The notes under the pieces were generated by a model. That model did not search any database. It was given only the letters and a program-made list of their open reading frames with translations, and was not told the DNA's origin. Of a DNA stretch of 64,000 bases, positions 2,360 through 60,253 are shown one piece after another (the stretch's first letter is position 1; every line of letters begins with the position of its first letter). A program made the position numbers and the translations under genes. The stretch lies in contig NZ_JAHVJQ010000001.1 of assembly GCF_019801145.1 (NCBI RefSeq), positions 124,001-188,000 of the forward strand, read 5' to 3'. Origin of the DNA: Leisingera aquaemixtae. GTDB taxonomy: Bacteria > Pseudomonadota > Alphaproteobacteria > Rhodobacterales > Rhodobacteraceae.

Positions 2360-3121
2360 TCACGCTCCTGTGCGTACGAATTTGCCATCCACCACGTGGA
2401 TGCCGCATTCTTCCTTGTTTTCACCGCGCCAGCGCCCGGCACGGGGGTCTTCGCCTTCCTTGACCGGGCTGGTGCAGGGCGCGCAGCCGATCGAGGGATA
2501 GCCCTTGGCCACCAGCGGATGGCGGGGCAGGCGGTTTTCATCCATATAGACGCGCACGTCCTCGGGCGCCCAGTGGGCCAGCGGGTTGATCTTGAGCCGC
2601 CCGGTGCCGTCCTCGACCTCGAAGAATTCGAGAGCGGCACGGGTGCCGGACTGGAACCGCTTGCGGCCGGTGATCCAGCCGTCGTAGCCGTCCAGCGCCT
2701 TCTGCAGCGGGACGGTCTTGCGCAGGGTGCAGCAGGCATCCTTGTCGCTGAACCGCAGCGCCCCGTAGGGGTCCTTCTCGGCGATGTCATCGGCGCGGAT
2801 AATGCGCACATTGCGCAGGCCCAGCCGCTCGCTCACCTCCTGCTGATAGATCAGCGTTTCGGTGAACAGCAGTTCGGTGTCCACGAATACCACCGGCGTC
2901 ATCGGGTCGATGATCGCGGCCATATGCAGGAGCACCACGGATTCCGCGCCGAAAGAGGAGACCAGGGCGATGTGCCCTGCGTCCCGCAATGCGCCCTCCA
3001 TCACCGAGGTGGCCGAGTGGTGGCGGTAGCGCGCATTGAGCGCTTCCGCCTTGGCGGCCAGCTCCCGGTCCCGGAGAATGTCAGCTTCTCCGGCGGGCCT
3101 ATTTCCGGCTGGTTGGAACAT
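2360..3121 (-). CDS. cysH: adenylyl-sulfate reductase (APS reductase, 4Fe-4S type)
   Basis: Thioredoxin-dependent reduction of adenylyl-sulfate to sulfite in assimilatory sulfate reduction. The 253-residue protein has the PAPS/APS reductase core (LVSSFGAESVVLLHM, VVFVDTELLF) and the C-terminal catalytic ECGIH. It also has the paired-cysteine signature CC...CxxC (KDACCTLRK and IGCAPCTSP) that marks the 4Fe-4S enzymes acting on APS; E. coli PAPS reductase lacks these cysteines. ATG 3121 is the start, 4 bp after the cysI stop. A longer frame continues upstream across cysI but is not genuine. Confidence in APS rather than PAPS as substrate is good because all four cluster cysteines are present. 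Confidence 0.93.
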   Translation of the reverse strand: MFQPAGNRPAGEADILRDRELAAKAEALNARYRHHSATSVMEGALRDAGHIALVSSFGAESVVLLHMAAIIDPMTPVVFVDTELLFTETLIYQQEVSERLGLRNVRIIRADDIAEKDPYGALRFSDKDACCTLRKTVPLQKALDGYDGWITGRKRFQSGTRAALEFFEVEDGTGRLKINPLAHWAPEDVRVYMDENRLPRHPLVAKGYPSIGCAPCTSPVKEGEDPRAGRWRGENKEECGIHVVDGKFVRTGA

Positions 3122-3125
3122 CAGA

Positions 3126-4790
3126 TCAGGCGACCTTTTTCTGAGCCTCGGGGTACAGTGCTGCCTTGAACGGCTCCATGCCGATCCGGCGGTAGGTTTC
3201 GAGGAAGGTTTCCTCGGCGCTTTCACGCTGGGCCATGTAGACCTCGACGATGCGCTCCACGGCGGGAACGATTTCGTCATAGGCAAAGCCGGGGCCGGTG
3301 CGGGTGCCGATGGCAGCCGTCTCGGTGGCGTCGCCGCCCAGGGTGATCTGGTAGTTTTCAACACCAGCGCGGTCCAGGCCCAGGATGCCGATATGGGCAA
3401 CATGGTGGTGGCCGCAGGCGTTGATGCAGCCCGAGATCTTGATCTGCAGATGGCCGATGTCGTGCTCCATCTTCAGCTCGTCAAAGCGGGTTGCGATCTC
3501 TTGCGCCACCGGGATCGAGCGGGCGGTCGCCAGCGCGCAGTAGTCCATGCCCGGGCAGGCAATGATGTCCGAGATCAGGCCGATGTTGGCGGTGGCCAGG
3601 CCGTTTGCCTTCAGAGCCGCGTGGATTGCCGGCAGGTCGTTCTTGTGGACATGCGGCAGGATCACGTTCTGCTGGTGGCTGATGCGCAGCTCGCCATAGG
3701 CGTACTGTTCGGCCAGGTCGGCCATCACCCGCATCTGCTCAGCCGTCGCGTCGCCCGGGGTCTGCCCGTGCGCCTTGATCGAGATGGTGGCGATGGCGTG
3801 GCCTTCGGCGCGGTGCTCGGCCAGGTTGGTGTCGGCCCAGGCGCGGAACACCGGGTCGTTTGCATAGGCCGCGTCGAACGCTTCGGTGGAACCGGAGCGG
3901 AACTCCGGCGCCTTGAAATGCTCCTTGATCTCGGCCAGCAGCGCCTGGTCGGTGCCGTCGAACTGGCCGCGCAGGGCGAGGAAGGCTTCCTCCACCTTGG
4001 CGCGGATGGTGTCGATGCCGTTTTCCTGCACGGTGATCTTGATGCGCGCCTTGTACTTGTTGTCGCGGCGGCCCAGCACGTTGTAGACGCTGAGGATCGC
4101 TTCCAGGTAGGGCAGCAGGTCTGCCTGCGGCAGGAACTCGCGCAGCACCTTGCCGACCAGCGGGGTGCGGCCCAGGCCGCCGCCGACGACAACCTCGAAA
4201 CCGATTTCACCGTCGCGCTCGACCATGCGCAGGCCGACGTCATGCGCCTTGGTCACGGCGCGGTCGTTGGGGCTGCCGGTGATGGCGATCTTGAACTTGC
4301 GGCCCAGGAACTGGAACTCCGGGTGGTCGGTGGACCACTGGCGGATCAGCTCTGCATAGGGGCGGGGGTCGGTCAGCTCATCCGCGGCGGCACCGGCGAA
4401 ATGGTCAGCGGTGGTGTTGCGGATGGTGTTGCCCGAGGTCTGGATCGCGTGCAGGCCGGCCTCGCCCAGCGCATCCAGCATCTCCGGGATGTCGCGCAGC
4501 TTGGGCCAGTTGTACTGGATGTTCTGGCGGGTGGTGAAATGGCCATAGCCCTTGTCCCACTTTTCGGCCAGCAGCGCCAGGGTGCGCATCTGGTGCGGGT
4601 TCAGGGTGCCATAGGGGATCGCGACCCGCAGCATATAGGCGTGCAGCTGCAGGTAGACGCCGTTCATCAGGCGCAGCGGCTTGAATTCGTCCTCGGTGAG
4701 GGAGCCGTCGATGCGGCGCTCGACCTGGGCGCGGAACTGGGCGTTGCGTTCGGCCAGGAAGGCTTCGTCAAACTCGTTGTACTTATACAT
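3126..4790 (-). CDS. cysI: sulfite (nitrite/sulfite) reductase haemoprotein, sirohaem-dependent
   Basis: A 554-residue sirohaem and 4Fe-4S reductase that converts sulfite to sulfide. The two ferredoxin-like halves are visible, with an N-terminal RQNIQYNWP motif and the cluster/sirohaem ligands in the C-terminal half (CPGMDYCALATARS, then SGCINACGHHHVAHIG). Its length and ligands suit the single-subunit ferredoxin-type enzymes better than NADPH-CysIJ, and no cysJ lies nearby. Its operon context (cobA for sirohaem, cysH for sulfite) points to sulfite rather than nitrite as substrate. ATG 4790 overlaps the end of the DUF2849 gene by 8 bp, indicating coupled translation; a start further up at 4814 is unlikely. 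Confidence 0.92.
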   Translation of the reverse strand: MYKYNEFDEAFLAERNAQFRAQVERRIDGSLTEDEFKPLRLMNGVYLQLHAYMLRVAIPYGTLNPHQMRTLALLAEKWDKGYGHFTTRQNIQYNWPKLRDIPEMLDALGEAGLHAIQTSGNTIRNTTADHFAGAAADELTDPRPYAELIRQWSTDHPEFQFLGRKFKIAITGSPNDRAVTKAHDVGLRMVERDGEIGFEVVVGGGLGRTPLVGKVLREFLPQADLLPYLEAILSVYNVLGRRDNKYKARIKITVQENGIDTIRAKVEEAFLALRGQFDGTDQALLAEIKEHFKAPEFRSGSTEAFDAAYANDPVFRAWADTNLAEHRAEGHAIATISIKAHGQTPGDATAEQMRVMADLAEQYAYGELRISHQQNVILPHVHKNDLPAIHAALKANGLATANIGLISDIIACPGMDYCALATARSIPVAQEIATRFDELKMEHDIGHLQIKISGCINACGHHHVAHIGILGLDRAGVENYQITLGGDATETAAIGTRTGPGFAYDEIVPAVERIVEVYMAQRESAEETFLETYRRIGMEPFKAALYPEAQKKVA

Positions 4791-31731: not shown

Positions 31732-31806
31732 GGGTGATTAGCTCAGTGGTAGAGCGCTTCGTTCACATCGAAGATGTCAGGAGTTCAAATCTCTTATCAC
31801 CCACCA
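31732..31806 (+). tRNA. tRNA-Val (CAC)
   Basis: Full cloverleaf of 75 nt: acceptor GGGTGAT/ATCACCC, anticodon stem CTTCG/CGAAG around loop TTCACAT (anticodon CAC), T loop TTCAAAT, CCA encoded at the end. It reads the Val codon GTG. Confidence 0.95.
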
Positions 31807-31920
31807 TTATTCCTGAAAGGCGCTCCCTGAAAAGGTTGAGCGCCTTTTGTCTTTCCGGGGTTTCGCTGGGGGAGTTGTGCCGCTACCAATTTGCCTGAAA
31901 AAACGGGCAGGGGGCATATC

Positions 31921-32490
31921 ATGCAATTTCCGAAAATCTGGCTGCTGCGGCACGGGCAGACCGAATGGAATGCAGAGCACCGCATTCAGGGGCAGTTGGA
32001 ATCGCCGCTGAGCCCATTGGGAGTGGAGCACGCCCGCAGGCAGGCTGTGCTGATGGCGCCGGTGATGGCGCAGACGCCCGCATGTTATGCCTCGCCGCTG
32101 GGCCGGGCGCAGCAGACCGCGGATATTGCCCTGGGCGGTGCGCCTTTCCTGACCGATCCGCGCCTGGCGGAAGCTTATGCGGGGGTGTTCCAGGGCATGA
32201 CGCTGGAAGAAGTGGCAGAACAGTATCCGCTAGTTTACGGCGGCAACCCGCGCAATCTCGACCTGTTCTGCGAGGCGCCGGGAGGTGAGGGGTATGACAG
32301 CTTTCATGCCCGGATCCTGGATTTCATGCAGTCCTTGACCGGGCCGTCGGTGGTGGTGGCGCACGGGCTGCTGGGGCAGGTGATGCGCGGCATCGTCTGC
32401 GGGCTCAGCCGCGACCGGATGGCGGCGCTGCCGAACGGGCAGGGCTGTGTCTATGTGCTGGAAAACGGACGCGAAACGGTGCTGGAGTAG
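31921..32490 (+). CDS. histidine phosphatase (phosphoglycerate mutase-like) protein
   Basis: A 189-residue cytoplasmic phosphatase. The phosphohistidine motif LRHGQTEWN is at about residues 9-17, the SPLGRAQQTA arginine motif near 58, and the second active-site His in VVVAHGLLGQVMR near 150. It is of the small, cofactor-independent-mutase-like phosphatase type; substrate unknown (sugar phosphates or a cofactor intermediate in relatives). ATG 31921. It lies between the two valine tRNA genes. Confidence 0.9.
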   Translation: MQFPKIWLLRHGQTEWNAEHRIQGQLESPLSPLGVEHARRQAVLMAPVMAQTPACYASPLGRAQQTADIALGGAPFLTDPRLAEAYAGVFQGMTLEEVAEQYPLVYGGNPRNLDLFCEAPGGEGYDSFHARILDFMQSLTGPSVVVAHGLLGQVMRGIVCGLSRDRMAALPNGQGCVYVLENGRETVLE

Positions 32491-32566
32491 CCGTCTGCTG
32501 CGCGCAAAGAAATTCTGCGATTTCCTCTTGCACTGTCCGGCGTCATTGTCTAAATCCGCCGTCACC

Positions 32567-32642
<76 letters not shown>

Positions 32643-32842
32643 TTCCCCCTGTTCGAAGTATCATGAATGCCCCGCAAGGCAGCTGCTTGCTGCGGGTGTT
32701 TTCTGTTGCTTTTCAGGGGCTTGAATTGCGCGGCGGATTTTTTTCCGGGAAAGTCGGGAAAATGGCAAAACACCGCTTGACGGCTTGGGGGGCGGGGAAT
32801 ATTACAGCCCAACATTCAGCAGCGATGCTGAATGCGCAGCGG

Positions 32843-32919
32843 GCGGTTGTAGCTCAGTTGGTTAGAGTACCGGCCTGTCACGCCGGGGGTCGCGGGTTCG
32901 AGCCCCGTCAACCGCGCCA
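32843..32919 (+). tRNA. tRNA-Asp (GTC), copy 1
   Basis: 77-nt cloverleaf: acceptor GCGGTTG/CAACCGC, anticodon stem CCGGC/GCCGG around loop CTGTCAC (anticodon GTC), encoded CCA. The 203 bases between this gene and tRNA-Val(TAC) hold no gene. Confidence 0.96.
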
Positions 32920-33001
32920 CTGCTGTGCCCTGTCCCGGGGCTGAACAGGGACCGCCCCGGAGGGGACCTGGATCGGAAACGGTCCGCCGCAAGGCGAAAA
33001 T

Positions 33002-33078
33002 GCGGTTGTAGCTCAGTTGGTTAGAGTACCGGCCTGTCACGCCGGGGGTCGCGGGTTCGAGCCCCGTCAACCGCGCCA
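33002..33078 (+). tRNA. tRNA-Asp (GTC), copy 2
   Basis: Same 77-base sequence as copy 1, 82 bp further on, with a different spacer. Confidence 0.96.
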
Positions 33079-33145
33079 CTTTCGCCCGCCGCCCTGGCGT
33101 TTCAGGGTCCGCCCCGGACGGGGAACATAGCCGAAAGGCCCATGC

Positions 33146-33222
33146 GCGGTTGTAGCTCAGTTGGTTAGAGTACCGGCCTGTCACGCCGGGGGTCGCGGGT
33201 TCGAGCCCCGTCAACCGCGCCA
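33146..33222 (+). tRNA. tRNA-Asp (GTC), copy 3
   Basis: Same 77-base sequence as copies 1 and 2, 67 bp after copy 2. Last of the tRNA run; the duplicated DUF922-like gene follows. Confidence 0.96.
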
Positions 33223-56597: not shown

Positions 56598-57158
56598 TCA
56601 GTTGCCGCGCAGAAGGGCGGCAACACCGGTGCGGGCGATCTCGCTCAGCCCCAGCGGGCGCATCAGATCGGCAAAGGCATCGATTTTTTCCGGTGCGCCG
56701 GTGATCTCAAAAACAAAGCTGTTCAGCGTGCTGTCGACCACATTGGCACGGAAGATATCCGCCAGCCGCAGCGCTTCGACGCGCTTGTCGCCTTCGCCGG
56801 CCACCTTCAGGATTGCCAGCTCACGCTCCACCGCGGCGCCTTCGACCGTCAGGTCATGCACGTCGCGGACCGAGACGATGCGGCCCAGCTGCGCCTTGAT
56901 CTGCTCGATCACCTGCGGGGTGCCGGTGGTGACGATGGTGATGCGCGATAGATGGCCGGTATGGTCCACCTCCGCCACGGTGAGGCTTTCGATGTTGTAG
57001 CCGCGGCCCGAGAACAGGCCGATGACACGGGCCAGAACCCCGGGTTCGTTTTCCACCAGCACCGCAATGGTATGGCGCTCCTGCACGTCCGAGAACGTCG
57101 GGCGCAGGTTGTAGGCGGAGTGGCGGGTGGAGCCTTTTTTGATATGCAGGGCAGACAT
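56598..57158 (-). CDS. ilvN: acetolactate synthase small (regulatory) subunit
   Basis: A 186-residue regulatory subunit of acetohydroxyacid synthase. The N-terminal ACT domain (HTIAVLVENEPGVLARVIGLFSGRGYNIESL, about 28-60) binds valine for feedback control; the C-terminal ALS_ss_C part follows (ALRLADIFRANVVD, TGAPEKIDAFADLM). ATG 57158 follows GAGAGGAAG. It is downstream of ilvB with an 87-bp gap containing an imperfect repeat of AAATTTGGATTTTCCTGGCA; likely one operon under the leader attenuator. Confidence 0.94.
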   Translation of the reverse strand: MSALHIKKGSTRHSAYNLRPTFSDVQERHTIAVLVENEPGVLARVIGLFSGRGYNIESLTVAEVDHTGHLSRITIVTTGTPQVIEQIKAQLGRIVSVRDVHDLTVEGAAVERELAILKVAGEGDKRVEALRLADIFRANVVDSTLNSFVFEITGAPEKIDAFADLMRPLGLSEIARTGVAALLRGN

Positions 57159-57245: not shown

Positions 57246-58997
57246 TTACACCAGCACTGCGCCGCCGGCCTGGATGACGCCCTGCGTCTCGGCCTCGCCC
57301 AGCAGCATCTCGTTGTGCGCCTTGCCCGACGGAATCATCGGGAAGCAGTTTTCGTGCTTTTCGACCAGGCAGTCGAAGATCACCGGCCCGTCGTAATTGA
57401 TCATTTCCATGATCGCATCATCCAGATCGGCGGGGTCGCTGACGCAGATGCCCTTGCAGCCGAAGGCTTCGGCGAGCTTCACGAAATCGGGCAGCGCCTC
57501 GGACCAGCTGTGGCTGTAGCGCTCGCCGTGCAGCAGTTCCTGCCACTGGCGCACCATGCCCAAGCGCTCGTTGTTGAGGATGAACTGCTTCACCGGCAGG
57601 CGGAACTGCACCGCGGTGCCCATCTCCTGCATGTTCATCAGCCACGACGCTTCGCCTGCGACGTTGATCACCAGCGCGTCCGGATGCGCCATCTGGGCGC
57701 CGATCGAGGCCGGAAAGCCATAGCCCATGGTGCCGAGCCCCCCGGAGGTCATCCAGCGGTTCGGGTCTTCAAAGCCCAGGTACTGTGCCGCCCACATCTG
57801 GTGCTGGCCGACCTCGGTGGTGACATAGCGGTCGCGGCCCTTGGTCAGCGCCTCAAGGCGCTGCAGCGCGTACTGCGGCTTGATGGTCTTTTCCGAGTTC
57901 TTGAAGGACAGGCAGTTTATCGCGCGCCATTCATTGATCTGCTTGTGCCATTTTTCCAGCGCCTCGCGGTTCACCTTGCGGCCGCGCGACTTCCAGACCT
58001 TCAGGATGTCCTCCAGCACATGGGCAACATCGCCGACAATCGGGATATCGACCCGGATCACCTTGTTGATCGAGGAGGGGTCGATGTCGATATGCGCCTT
58101 TTTCGATTTCGGGCTGAAGGCGTCGATGCGGCCGGTGATGCGGTCGTCGAACCGGGCACCGATGTTGATCATCAGGTCGCAGCCGTGCATCGCCATGTTG
58201 GCCTCGTAAAGCCCGTGCATCCCCAGCATCCCCAGCCAGTTCTTGCCCGAGGCCGGATAGGCGCCAAGCCCCATCAGGGTCGAGGTGACCGGAATGCCGG
58301 TGCCGTCCACCAGCTCGCGCAGCAGCTGGCTGGCCGCGGTGCCGGAGTTGATGACGCCGCCGCCGGTATAGAACACCGGGCGCTTGGCCTTTTCGATGGC
58401 CTCGACCAGCTCTGTGATCGCCTCCATGTCGCCTTTGACCTGCGGCTGGTAATGGGAAACCGAGGGTTTCGGTGCCTGATATGTGCCGTTGGCGAATTGA
58501 ACGTCCTTGGGGATGTCGACCAGAACCGGGCCGGGGCGGCCGGACTTGGCGACATGGAACGCCTCGTGCAGGGTGCCGGCCAGCGCATCGGTGTCCTTGA
58601 CCAGCCAGTTGTGCTTGGTGCAGGGGCGGGTGATGCCAACGGTATCGGCCTCCTGGAAGGCGTCGGAGCCGATCATGAAGGTCGGCACCTGGCCGGTCAG
58701 AACCACGATCGGGATCGAGTCCAAGAGCGCATCGGTGAGGCCGGTCACCGCATTGGTGGCGCCGGGGCCGGAGGTCACCAGGACAACACCGGGCTTGCCA
58801 GTGGAGCGGGCATAGCCTTCGGCGGCGTGGACCGCGCCCTGTTCATGCCGGACCAGCACGTGGCGGATGTCATTTTGCAGAAAGATCTCGTCATAGATCG
58901 GCAGCACGGCGCCGCCTGGGTATCCGAAGACTACGTCCACACCCTGATCCTTCAGGGCTTGGACAACCATCTTTGCGCCGGTCATTTCACGTGTCAT
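57246..58997 (-). CDS. ilvB: acetolactate synthase large (catalytic) subunit
   Basis: ThDP-, FAD- and Mg-dependent enzyme that condenses pyruvate to acetolactate, first shared step to Val, Leu and Ile. The 583-residue protein has the catalytic Glu region RHEQGAVHAAEG (about 51), FAD-binding GLGAYPAS segment, and IGARFDDRITG. The usual metal-binding GDGSF motif reads GEASW (VAGEASWLMNMQEMG), with Glu in the Asp position, and the later NNERLGMVRQW is intact. ATG 58997; ATG 58985 is a second possibility. Preceded by a leader peptide and attenuator. Confidence 0.95.
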   Translation of the reverse strand: MTREMTGAKMVVQALKDQGVDVVFGYPGGAVLPIYDEIFLQNDIRHVLVRHEQGAVHAAEGYARSTGKPGVVLVTSGPGATNAVTGLTDALLDSIPIVVLTGQVPTFMIGSDAFQEADTVGITRPCTKHNWLVKDTDALAGTLHEAFHVAKSGRPGPVLVDIPKDVQFANGTYQAPKPSVSHYQPQVKGDMEAITELVEAIEKAKRPVFYTGGGVINSGTAASQLLRELVDGTGIPVTSTLMGLGAYPASGKNWLGMLGMHGLYEANMAMHGCDLMINIGARFDDRITGRIDAFSPKSKKAHIDIDPSSINKVIRVDIPIVGDVAHVLEDILKVWKSRGRKVNREALEKWHKQINEWRAINCLSFKNSEKTIKPQYALQRLEALTKGRDRYVTTEVGQHQMWAAQYLGFEDPNRWMTSGGLGTMGYGFPASIGAQMAHPDALVINVAGEASWLMNMQEMGTAVQFRLPVKQFILNNERLGMVRQWQELLHGERYSHSWSEALPDFVKLAEAFGCKGICVSDPADLDDAIMEMINYDGPVIFDCLVEKHENCFPMIPSGKAHNEMLLGEAETQGVIQAGGAVLV

Positions 58998-59037: not shown

Positions 59038-59067
59038 AAAAAAAGCCCCCGATTTTCATTCGGAGGC
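59038..59067 (-). terminator. attenuator terminator of the ilvBN leader
   Basis: On the minus strand GCCTCCGA (59067-59060) pairs with TCGGGGGC (59052-59045, one G-T pair) and is followed by seven T (59044-59038), all before the ilvB start. It lies about 40 bp upstream of ilvB. Confidence 0.85.
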
Positions 59068-59108
59068 GCATGGGTTCGATTATGGTCTACCGTTACCGGC
59101 CCATGCGC
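59066..59108 (-). promoter_or_regulatory. antiterminator stem of the ilvBN leader
   Basis: GCGCATGGG (59108-59100, inside the leader peptide frame) is the perfect complement of CCCATGCGC (59074-59066), whose last two bases belong to the terminator stem. The two structures therefore compete. A ribosome stalled at the Leu/Val/Ile codons leaves the left arm free and favours this stem; one at the stop codon covers it and lets the terminator form. Confidence 0.7.
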
Positions 59109-59146
59109 TTGGTTCCTACGATTACGACTAGGGTGGTCACTGCCAC
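59093..59146 (-). CDS. ilvBN leader peptide
   Basis: A 17-codon frame, MAVTTLVVIVGTKRMGR, starting with GTG at 59146 (a second GTG at 59140 is possible) after AAGAAGGAGCCT. Codons 6-10 are CTA GTC GTA ATC GTA, that is Leu-Val-Val-Ile-Val, the three end products of the ilv/leu pathways. CTA and GTA look rare in this GC-rich DNA, which would strengthen stalling. The stop TAA lies 26 bp before the terminator stem. Not previously detectable by length-based gene calling. Confidence 0.8.
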   Translation of the reverse strand: MAVTTLVVIVGTKRMGR

Positions 59147-59401
59147 AGGCTCCTTCTTGCGTTGCGGGCGACATTATGTCTGCCGGACAGGGGCGTCAAC
59201 CGCGAAAGCTGTCAAAAAACACCGGTTCAGGGACATTTTCTTGCTTGCGGACCGGGGTGCGGTGAAATTTCCGCGAAAGTGACGGCGCGTGCCAGTGCGG
59301 ATTCGTTCAAAACCGGCATGCCCGTGTCCCGTTTGTGCCAGATCGCCCCAGCGCCAGCAGGCAAGCTTATCCCAAAAGAGGCGACAGGGAAGGACTTGGA
59401 C

Positions 59402-60253
59402 ATGGCTGAACTTGCGGAACTGGTGGACCTGGGGCGCTATCCGATCGACAGGCCGGGGTCGCCGGCCTATGCGCGGATGATGTCGGATCTGCAAGGCGAG
59501 CTGGAAGCCGACGGCTGCGCGGTGCTGCCGGGCTTTGTGCACCCGGACGGCATCGGCAAGCTGATTGCGGAAGCTGATTCCGTGGCGGATCAGGGGCATA
59601 AGTCGTTCAGCCGCACCAATGCCTATTTCTCCAAGGACGATCCGTCGCTGCCGGAGGGCCACCCGGTGCGCCAGTTCTATGACCGCTCCAATGCCTTCAT
59701 TCCAGCGGACAATTTTGGCGCCGGCAGTCCGCTGCGGACAATTTACGAGTTTCCCGGCTTCATGCCCTTCATCCGCGAGGCGCTGGGGGAGCCGGAGGAC
59801 CGCTTCTTCCGTTATGACGATCCGCTGGCCGATGTGATCATCAACATGGTGGAGGAGGGTGACGGCTTTCCCTGGCATTTCGACACCAACAACTACACGG
59901 TGACGCTGGCGATCCAGAACGGCGAGGCGGGCGGCGATTTCGAATATGCGCCTATGCTGCGCACCCCCACGGATGAAAACTACGACGGGGTTGCGCGGGT
60001 GCTGGCAGGCGGCTCGCCGCTGGTGCGCAGGCTGGTGCTGCAGCCGGGAGATCTGCAGATTTTCCGCGGCCGTTATTCGTTGCACCGTGTGGCCCCGGTG
60101 GCAGGCCCGCGCAGGCGCTACGTCGGCATCTTCTCCTTTGTCGAGACAGAGGGCATGTGCGGCGGAGTGGAGCGCACCAGGCAGCTTTACGGCCGGGTGC
60201 TGCCGCGCCACTACGAGCGCGAGGGACTGCGCGCCGACGCGCTGCGCGATTGA
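59402..60253 (+). CDS. 2-oxoglutarate/Fe(II) oxygenase-like protein (HalD/BesD-type fold)
   Basis: A 283-residue non-haem iron enzyme. The facial triad is visible as HxD in FPWHFDTNNYTVTLAIQ (about 158-160) and a distal His in RYSLHRVAP (about 226), with Arg in RRYVGIF for 2-oxoglutarate. The surrounding sequence (GEAGGDFEYAPMLRTP, VLQPGDLQIFRGR) resembles the BesD/HalD amino-acid halogenase family, but halogenases have Gly in place of the Asp, so hydroxylation is more likely here. Substrate unknown. ATG 59402; divergent from the ilvB leader. Confidence 0.8.
   Translation: MAELAELVDLGRYPIDRPGSPAYARMMSDLQGELEADGCAVLPGFVHPDGIGKLIAEADSVADQGHKSFSRTNAYFSKDDPSLPEGHPVRQFYDRSNAFIPADNFGAGSPLRTIYEFPGFMPFIREALGEPEDRFFRYDDPLADVIINMVEEGDGFPWHFDTNNYTVTLAIQNGEAGGDFEYAPMLRTPTDENYDGVARVLAGGSPLVRRLVLQPGDLQIFRGRYSLHRVAPVAGPRRRYVGIFSFVETEGMCGGVERTRQLYGRVLPRHYEREGLRADALRD

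Follow-up and report, generated by a model that had tools for sequence, protein, structure and literature searches.

What governs ilvBN, the genes for acetolactate synthase, in Leisingera aquaemixtae, and is the device in front of them confined to this locus? The window analysed here is a stretch of 64,000 nt (positions 124,001 to 188,000 of contig NZ_JAHVJQ010000001.1, assembly GCF_019801145.1); coordinates count from its first letter and refer, unless marked otherwise, to its minus strand. The large subunit gene ilvB, the proposed regulated gene, lies at 57246-58997 (NF006581, 1137.5 bits; curated cut-off 974), and the small subunit gene ilvN at 56598-57158, above the cut-offs of both NF008864 (221.8 bits) and TIGR00119 (174.1 bits). 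On the plus strand, the divergent neighbour of ilvB (59402-60250) matches PF23169 (HalD, Halogenase D) with 40.5 bits against a cut-off of 26. An original prediction, made from the letters of the window, proposed for the space upstream of ilvB ribosome-mediated attenuation by the end products of the pathway; conserved frame, control codons, helices and terminator all support this, and judged from its sequence the element is very probably a transcription attenuator of ilvBN that responds to branched-chain amino acids.

The predicted parts (a ribosome site, a short frame, a 9-bp helix and a T-tailed terminator) are all present on the minus strand at the coordinates given for them. A putative promoter, TTGACG-17 nt-TAATGT, was found at 59171-59199 by pattern scan and conservation; a stricter promoter scan returned no promoter in the window. 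The Shine-Dalgarno sequence AAGGAG (59150-59155) is followed by a leader ORF of 15 codons (59093-59140), reading VTTLVVIVGTKRMGR and then TAA (59095-59093), in which the control codons CTA GTC GTA ATC GTA (L V V I V) take up 59117-59131. Within this ORF lies the left arm of helix P1, GCGCATGGG (59100-59108), which forms nine pairs with the right arm CCCATGCGC (59066-59074); adjoining P1 on its inside is the small hairpin P2, CCG-GUAA-CGG (59090-59099), whose four-base, GNRA-type loop carries the stop codon of the leader. The intrinsic terminator, GCCTCCGA-ATGAAAA-TCGGGGGC (59045-59067), has eight pairs between its arms (59067-59060 and 59052-59045), six of them G-C, and ends in a U tract of seven T (59038-59044). 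It is the only terminator-like site found between 58900 and 59420, where 0.8 would be expected by chance. The last two bases of the P1 right arm at the same time form the foot of the terminator stem.

For comparison, the best 80 listed matches to the IlvB protein were used; by their titles they belong to Rhodobacterales genera, to Rhodobacteraceae or Paracoccaceae, or are unplaced Alphaproteobacteria. In 77 of the 81 upstream regions (the window and the 80 relatives) ilvB is preceded by a frame in which four or more of five residues are L/V/I, and a detector requiring leader plus terminator was passed by 77/81, by 2/810 dinucleotide shuffles and by 0/81 antisense strands. The four upstreams it missed are L022, cut by a contig end, L047, whose LVVPS is below threshold, and L029 and L031, which are without the element. 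The pattern TTGAC-N-TAnnnT occurs ahead of the leader in 72 of the 81, compared with 0.9% of single-base shuffles. Six of the 80 loci were set aside before alignment (L022, L029 and L031 for the reasons given, and L038, L071 and L079 as divergent), leaving 74; the near-duplicates L003, L008, L009, L065 and L069 and the wrongly trimmed L016 were also left out, so that alignment A1 holds the window and 68 loci, 69 distinct sequences in all. A Shine-Dalgarno-like motif stands within 14 nt 5′ of the start column in 60 of the 69.

Translation would probably begin at the second GTG (59140) and not at the in-frame GTG at 59146, which would lengthen the peptide by VA: the Shine-Dalgarno spacing is 9 nt to the former and 3 nt to the latter, and ATG, GTG or TTG stands exactly at the 59140 column in 63/69 sequences. 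The frame and its L-V-V-I-V run are thus as first described, whereas the length of 17 codons probably has to be shortened to 15. There are no gaps between the start and the 5′ arm of P2 in any of the 69 rows. All five control positions are L, V or I in 58 rows, four in ten and three in one. At these positions 63 to 69 of the 69 rows have T as second codon base; the first base is usually C, G or A and the third is free, as expected if codons for Leu, Val and Ile are selected as a class. Rare codons are favoured there: GTA accounts for 95/178 valine codons, against 4.8% of Val in ilvB itself (80 loci), and CTA for 37/89 leucine codons, against 1.5% of Leu. The peptide ends in RMGR in 61/69 rows. 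Elsewhere in the window, at 31732-33222, lies a cluster of genes for tRNA-Val(CAC), tRNA-Val(TAC) and three tRNA-Asp; the tRNA-Val(TAC) would read the GTA codons of the leader.

The helices are conserved as helices. Taken together, P1, P2 and the terminator are paired in 98.6% of cells of A1, with 8/17 pairs changed on both sides; none of 500 shuffles reached any of the five measures used, and slid versions were 25 to 60% paired. The three parts contribute unequally: in P1 98.9% of cells are paired and the sequence is near-invariant, one of nine pairs being changed on both sides, P2 has all three of its pairs so changed, and in the terminator of the relatives four of five core pairs are, with 100% of cells paired. 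The comparison of ilvB upstreams, by which the attenuation reading might have fallen, did not refute it, because the relatives keep the frame, the control codons, the terminator and the helices, with compensatory changes.

For P2, which the original prediction did not include, CCG-GUAA-CGG or CCG-GUGA-CGG occur in 52 of the 69 rows together, and in 67 a hairpin of at least three pairs holds the stop in its loop, compared with a mean of 21.1 and a maximum of 36 when the flanks were shuffled (200 rounds). Sliding the stop by -12 to +15 gave 0 to 31 of 69, the slides of -9 and +12 still giving 31. In 64/69 rows CGG precedes the stop; a mostly synonymous site is held here, as it would have to be to supply the G of a GNRA loop. 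The predicted overlap of two bases between P1 and the terminator is confirmed and holds throughout A1: one of the overlapping pairs is C-G in 69/69, the other G-C (59) or G-U (10). A further hairpin, P3 (ACC...GGU), can be drawn between P2 and P1 in 42/69 sequences, against 13.6% of shuffles; it is not evident by eye in the window and was not listed as part of the window element. Just 3′ of the U tract (59037 and below in the window), GCG recurs, often as AUGCGC as in the right arm of P1; it lies no more than 7 nt after the U tract in 32/68 relatives and in 11% of shuffles.

Translation, stalling, termination and the direction of the response at the ilvBN leader would then proceed as follows. 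The position of the promoter-like site suggests an RNA that starts some 20-25 nt before the leader ORF. Under a shortage of charged Leu, Val or Ile tRNA, a ribosome would stall on CTA-GTC-GTA-ATC-GTA, its front edge leaving the left arm of P1 free, so that P1 with the nested P2 could fold; the last G-C pairs of P1 would compete with the base of the terminator stem, and more polymerases would continue into ilvBN. With a good supply of these amino acids, the ribosome would reach the stop codon in the loop of P2, unfold this hairpin and cover the left arm of P1; the basal G-C pairs of the terminator could then close against the U tract, ending transcription. The spacing suits such a sequence of events. 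The last control codon begins 11 nt 5′ of P1, gap-free in 69/69, which would be about one ribosome front, and the left arm ends before the stop codon is reached; with a front of 12 nt assumed, the arm is freed at the control codons and covered at the stop.

Equilibrium folds of the RNA left free by a ribosome with this front agree in part. P1 was formed whichever of the control codons the ribosome stalled at (mean 0.935 to 0.999); once the ribosome stood at the stop codon, P1 was at 0 and the basal pair of the terminator at 0.985. Stalls at control codons one to four lowered this basal pair to a mean of 0.76 to 0.79 (about 0.90 in the window), while a stall at the fifth left it at 0.985 (1.0 in the window). 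Two mutually exclusive states were not obtained by equilibrium folding; P1 and the terminator coexist, because they share only two base pairs. On the reading we favour, P1 would deprive the terminator of the free energy that its last two G-C pairs contribute, those that must form against the RNA-DNA hybrid, and would thereby weaken it; the competition for two pairs may be the physical step of attenuation, and we regard the case for and against it as about evenly balanced. Folding without a ribosome, in which a protector hairpin was looked for, revealed none. In that fold P1 stood at 0.875 and the basal terminator pair fell to 0.436 (0.106 in the window); with P1 likely to form without a ribosome, an untranslated leader should give read-through and not termination by default. 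The predicted ‘full set of parts’ for attenuation therefore stands as regards ORF, control codons, helices and terminator, but it lacks the protector hairpin and has a competition of two pairs only.

Many attenuators, though not all, have a protector hairpin that gives termination when the leader is not translated. The enterobacterial ilv, leu and his attenuators consist of a leader ORF with control codons, alternative helices and a terminator, all of which recur in the window; the window element differs from them in that no protector hairpin was found and in the minimal overlap of antiterminator and terminator. At gathering score, Rfam recognises five tRNAs in the window and no enterobacterial leader, riboswitch or T-box, and a riboswitch or known Rfam leader was rejected on this ground; sub-threshold matches to NsiR1 and P11 were taken as chance. 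The kind of control is known, since ilvBN attenuation has already been published for Alphaproteobacteria. An ilvB leader peptide in this class is called previously described in a passage of PMC1273637 (citing Vitreschak 2004), and a passage of PMC4117421 describes ilvBN attenuation in Caulobacter crescentus (citing Tarleton 1994); as far as these passages go, the likeness extends to the gene, the class, Ile and Val codons in the leader ORF and, in Caulobacter, a rho-independent terminator. It was fair to say beforehand that gene finders would miss a leader so short, but the alphaproteobacterial ilvB leader peptide had already been published, to judge from the same passages. The Corynebacterium ilvBNC operon, in a different phylum, resembles the window, as described, in having a leader peptide or upstream ORF before ilvB with attenuation (PMC10272879, PMC11857589); its model, to judge by title, has three hairpins.

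How far does the element extend? A covariance model of the ilvB leaders of A1 (R1) found one strong site in the genome of the window, at ilvB (E 2e-28); the next best match has an E of 0.43, and a second copy in this genome was rejected. At E 0.1 or better R1 had sites in 92 of 100 family genomes, a count that takes in weak and MFS-linked ones, and at E 0.01 or better in 22 of 240 genomes of the class; among the weak matches only some loci were opened, and L242 and L243 have neither ilvB nor an MFS gene downstream. In front of ilvB outside the family, the detector was passed by 6 of the 80 best-ranked upstreams among 168 genomes with a match, and by 2 of 400 single-base shuffles; of the six, only L174, L177 and L198 look plausible. 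A wide spread at ilvB beyond Rhodobacterales was rejected, since most sampled upstreams elsewhere in the class are without the element. At L174 (G287), the ilvB of another family, the leader looks different (MSLLIVPCAPNEGLA); a terminator follows it, and by eye its stop codon, too, lies in a hairpin loop. The assembly of G024 carries ilvB twice, on separate contigs (L230 and L231), and either copy has its own leader; they are either paralogues or the mark of a mixed assembly. Against the attenuation reading count the near-absence of covariation in P1, the coexisting folds, the failure to find a protector hairpin, the terminator set clear of P1 in the Rhizobiales form described below, and the absence of the element from L029, L031 and most sampled ilvB upstreams of the class.

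Beyond the family, the strong R1 matches led to another gene. In four genomes of the class outside the family (G247, G283, G100 and G295) R1 was strong, with E from 4e-8 to 4e-19, and all four sites (L130 to L133) precede a gene for a Bcr/CflA-type MFS transporter, as identified by tblastn; the proteins at L130 and L116 are above the TIGR00710 cut-off. Many MFS relatives are without the leader: within the family, it stands before the MFS gene at 4 of 30 MFS loci opened (G001, G004, G008 and G086), and among the most similar MFS loci in the class search it was seen by eye at three of six (L244, L245 and L249, not L246 to L248). The MFS relative in the genome of the window (L251, 40% identity) has no leader visible by eye in its 330 nt of upstream sequence. 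A second model, R2, built from a mixed alignment of ilvB and MFS leaders, matched 17 of 385 class genomes: five in the family of the window, all at ilvB, and twelve outside it, every one before the Bcr/CflA-type MFS gene. As R2 was made from both kinds of leader, this count shows specificity of place and is no independent discovery; independent support for the link to the transporter is the R1 result and, as described below, the Rfam family Atu_C8.

The leaders before the MFS gene look, from their sequence, richer in valine: V makes up 73/120 residues in 24 five-residue stretches picked by eye, mostly MFS-linked but including two from the ilvB leaders of Shinella and Sinorhizobium, as against 178/345 at ilvB (A1). 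L133 and L236 have no Val run, and in L325 the frame continues past the usual stop. In G295 (L133/L313), P2 and terminator of the MFS-linked copy are kept with a leader that reads MYLSNTAGVGARRPGR, and the related copy of G422 (L312) reads MHLLNTVVVGARRPGR. When the arms of P1 were compared at equal length in nine copies (eight MFS-linked kinds and L116), seven had mismatches: one in L130 and L326, two in L131, L132, L133, L317 and L318, and none in L116 and L305. The stop codon lies in a hairpin loop in 22 of 26 members of the combined MFS and Rhizobiales set (shuffled mean 9.1, maximum 14); with the stop slid by +6 it still does so in 18 of 26, so that the slide control is not clean for this set. 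One copy of the Rhodobacterales type, with the Val-rich leader MSVKFVVVVSRRCMVR, lies on a conjugative plasmid, pP14_b of Phaeobacter piscinae (L326, about 2960-4293), before a gene for a multidrug efflux MFS transporter; this gene adjoins one for a caspase-family protein. Of the plasmid matches, 7 of 16 were opened (H1, H3, H5, H7, H9, H10 and H15), and one of two of a second set (H17).

To Rfam RF02502 (Atu_C8) the window scores 19.4 bits, below the gathering score of 50; the consensus of the Rfam family reads as a Val-rich leader, RMGR included. The two share most of the core GCGCAUGGG...CCCAUGCGC, a leader ORF with RMG near its end and a stop codon in the loop of a nested hairpin, and they differ in P2, which has 5-6 pairs in Atu_C8 and three in the window, and in the terminator, which is 7-9 nt clear of P1 in 12 of 13 Atu_C8 copies (in L306 no stem was found). 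With the terminator clear of it, P1 would seem to act differently in this Rhizobiales form, or by way of a structure not found. We conclude from the sequences that Atu_C8 is the same element as the ilvB leader and that, judged by copies outside the Agrobacterium original, the ‘Rhizobiales sRNA’ is at least also a leader. It exceeds the cut-off before ilvB in Sinorhizobium meliloti Ak57 (L323, 121.1 bits), where annotation gives acetolactate synthase 3 large subunit and ilvN, and in Shinella sp. PSBB067 (L322, 113.8 bits); it precedes an MFS gene in Rhizobium gallicum, R. lusitanum, Rhizobium sp. CC1099, R. etli IE4803 (annotated Bcr/CflA) and Phyllobacterium sp. A18/5-2. The Ak57 record, CP090106.1, is labelled pSymB yet is 3.7 Mb long and carries ilvBN; the label may belong to another replicon. 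In all, 11 of 13 over-threshold copies opened precede an MFS gene, in a sample biased to plasmids and one family. The family of G206 has Atu_C8 over the cut-off in 6 of 36 genomes, all six copies directly before the MFS gene and with a leader frame of their own. In the class sample Atu_C8 is over the cut-off in 1 of 190 genomes, G206 (E 0.001 or better in 3 of 190), and a wide spread in the class was rejected on this count. At threshold RF02502 does not match L130-L133, L310, L128, L315, L319 or L326. According to a passage of PMC3738593, in which C8 is not named, 32 sRNAs of an earlier Agrobacterium study resembled parts of long 5′ UTRs.

That a homologous element is filed in Rfam as an sRNA raises the question whether the terminated leader might act mainly in trans, as RNA or perhaps as peptide, with the near-invariant GCGCAUGGG and RMGR as its working parts and control in cis secondary. 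The sequence of P1 is indeed kept beyond the needs of pairing, and there is a precedent: PMC7298713 and PMC10117765 report for trpL of S. meliloti that leader RNA and peptide act in trans, the terminated leader of this attenuator (rnTrpL/peTrpL) being a small RNA linked in trans, for Trp, to a multidrug resistance operon. The homologous attenuator described here, unlike rnTrpL, sits in cis before the efflux-type gene, and those strong copies whose downstream gene was checked adjoin ilvB or an MFS gene, as a cis element should. Moreover, RMGR and GCGCAUGGG are the same bases, so that conservation may be of the RNA only. Action mainly in trans is, all told, unlikely.

Drug-stalled leaders are known for efflux-type transporters in other bacteria. 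Attenuation of mef/mel is the subject of one paper (PMC4335068). With a homologous element before a Bcr/CflA efflux-type gene and the rare GTA and CTA enriched, the switch might sense ribosome slowing in general, caused for example by translation inhibitors, the codons for Leu, Val and Ile being just slow sites. At ilvB, however, the residue class L, V, I is kept while codons vary, and this ahead of exactly the pathway for these amino acids, which makes general slowing quite improbable. Very doubtful, too, is an account in which P1 and P2 form no antiterminator but a stable RNA domain, the binding site of a factor or ligand, with the role of the leader ORF limited to governing access to it. 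The GNRA-type loop of P2, the near-invariance of P1, its scant competition with the terminator and the lack of any overlap between the two in the Rhizobiales form would suit such a domain; that P1 overlaps the base of the terminator in every row of A1 speaks against it, as does the finding that, tRNA apart, no Rfam family matches the window at threshold. A chance alignment of short frame, inverted repeat and terminator, suggested at most by the chance expectation of the terminator scan, can be dismissed in view of conservation and shuffle controls, being refuted by the covariation and by the leader-plus-terminator detector.

Attenuation of ilvBN thus remains the preferred reading, and the ilvBN leader a clean member of a known control strategy. 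In the open-licence literature searched, we met with no description of Atu_C8 as an ilv or MFS leader and with no alphaproteobacterial Bcr/CflA gene said to be preceded by a leader-peptide attenuator; as far as that literature was searched, the stop-in-loop hairpin, the two-pair overlap, the identity with Atu_C8 and the use shared with the transporter were not encountered there.

A joint reading of these observations, offered tentatively and held to be possible though short of probable, is that a single, ancient attenuator family tuned to valine puts two genes of Alphaproteobacteria, those for acetolactate synthase and for a Bcr/CflA-type MFS transporter, under one signal, with Atu_C8 as its terminated form and with an unusual switch; it would cover the copy on the conjugative Phaeobacter plasmid as well. 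If it holds, the transporter belongs to the response to branched-chain amino acid starvation and may, for example, export inhibitors of the pathway, the valine shortage they cause being the inducer, or move a valine-related metabolite; the switch, with a stop codon in a tetraloop and an antitermination that costs the terminator only two base pairs, would be out of the ordinary. Apart from this reading, the comparison shows a family listed as a free-standing sRNA to be, at the copies seen, a leader with a small ORF of its own. The hairpin around the stop codon and the competition for two pairs would offer a simple case for how little pairing tips an intrinsic terminator, and, since the element links a class of transporters with a multidrug efflux annotation to the supply of branched-chain amino acids, what triggers the pump becomes testable.
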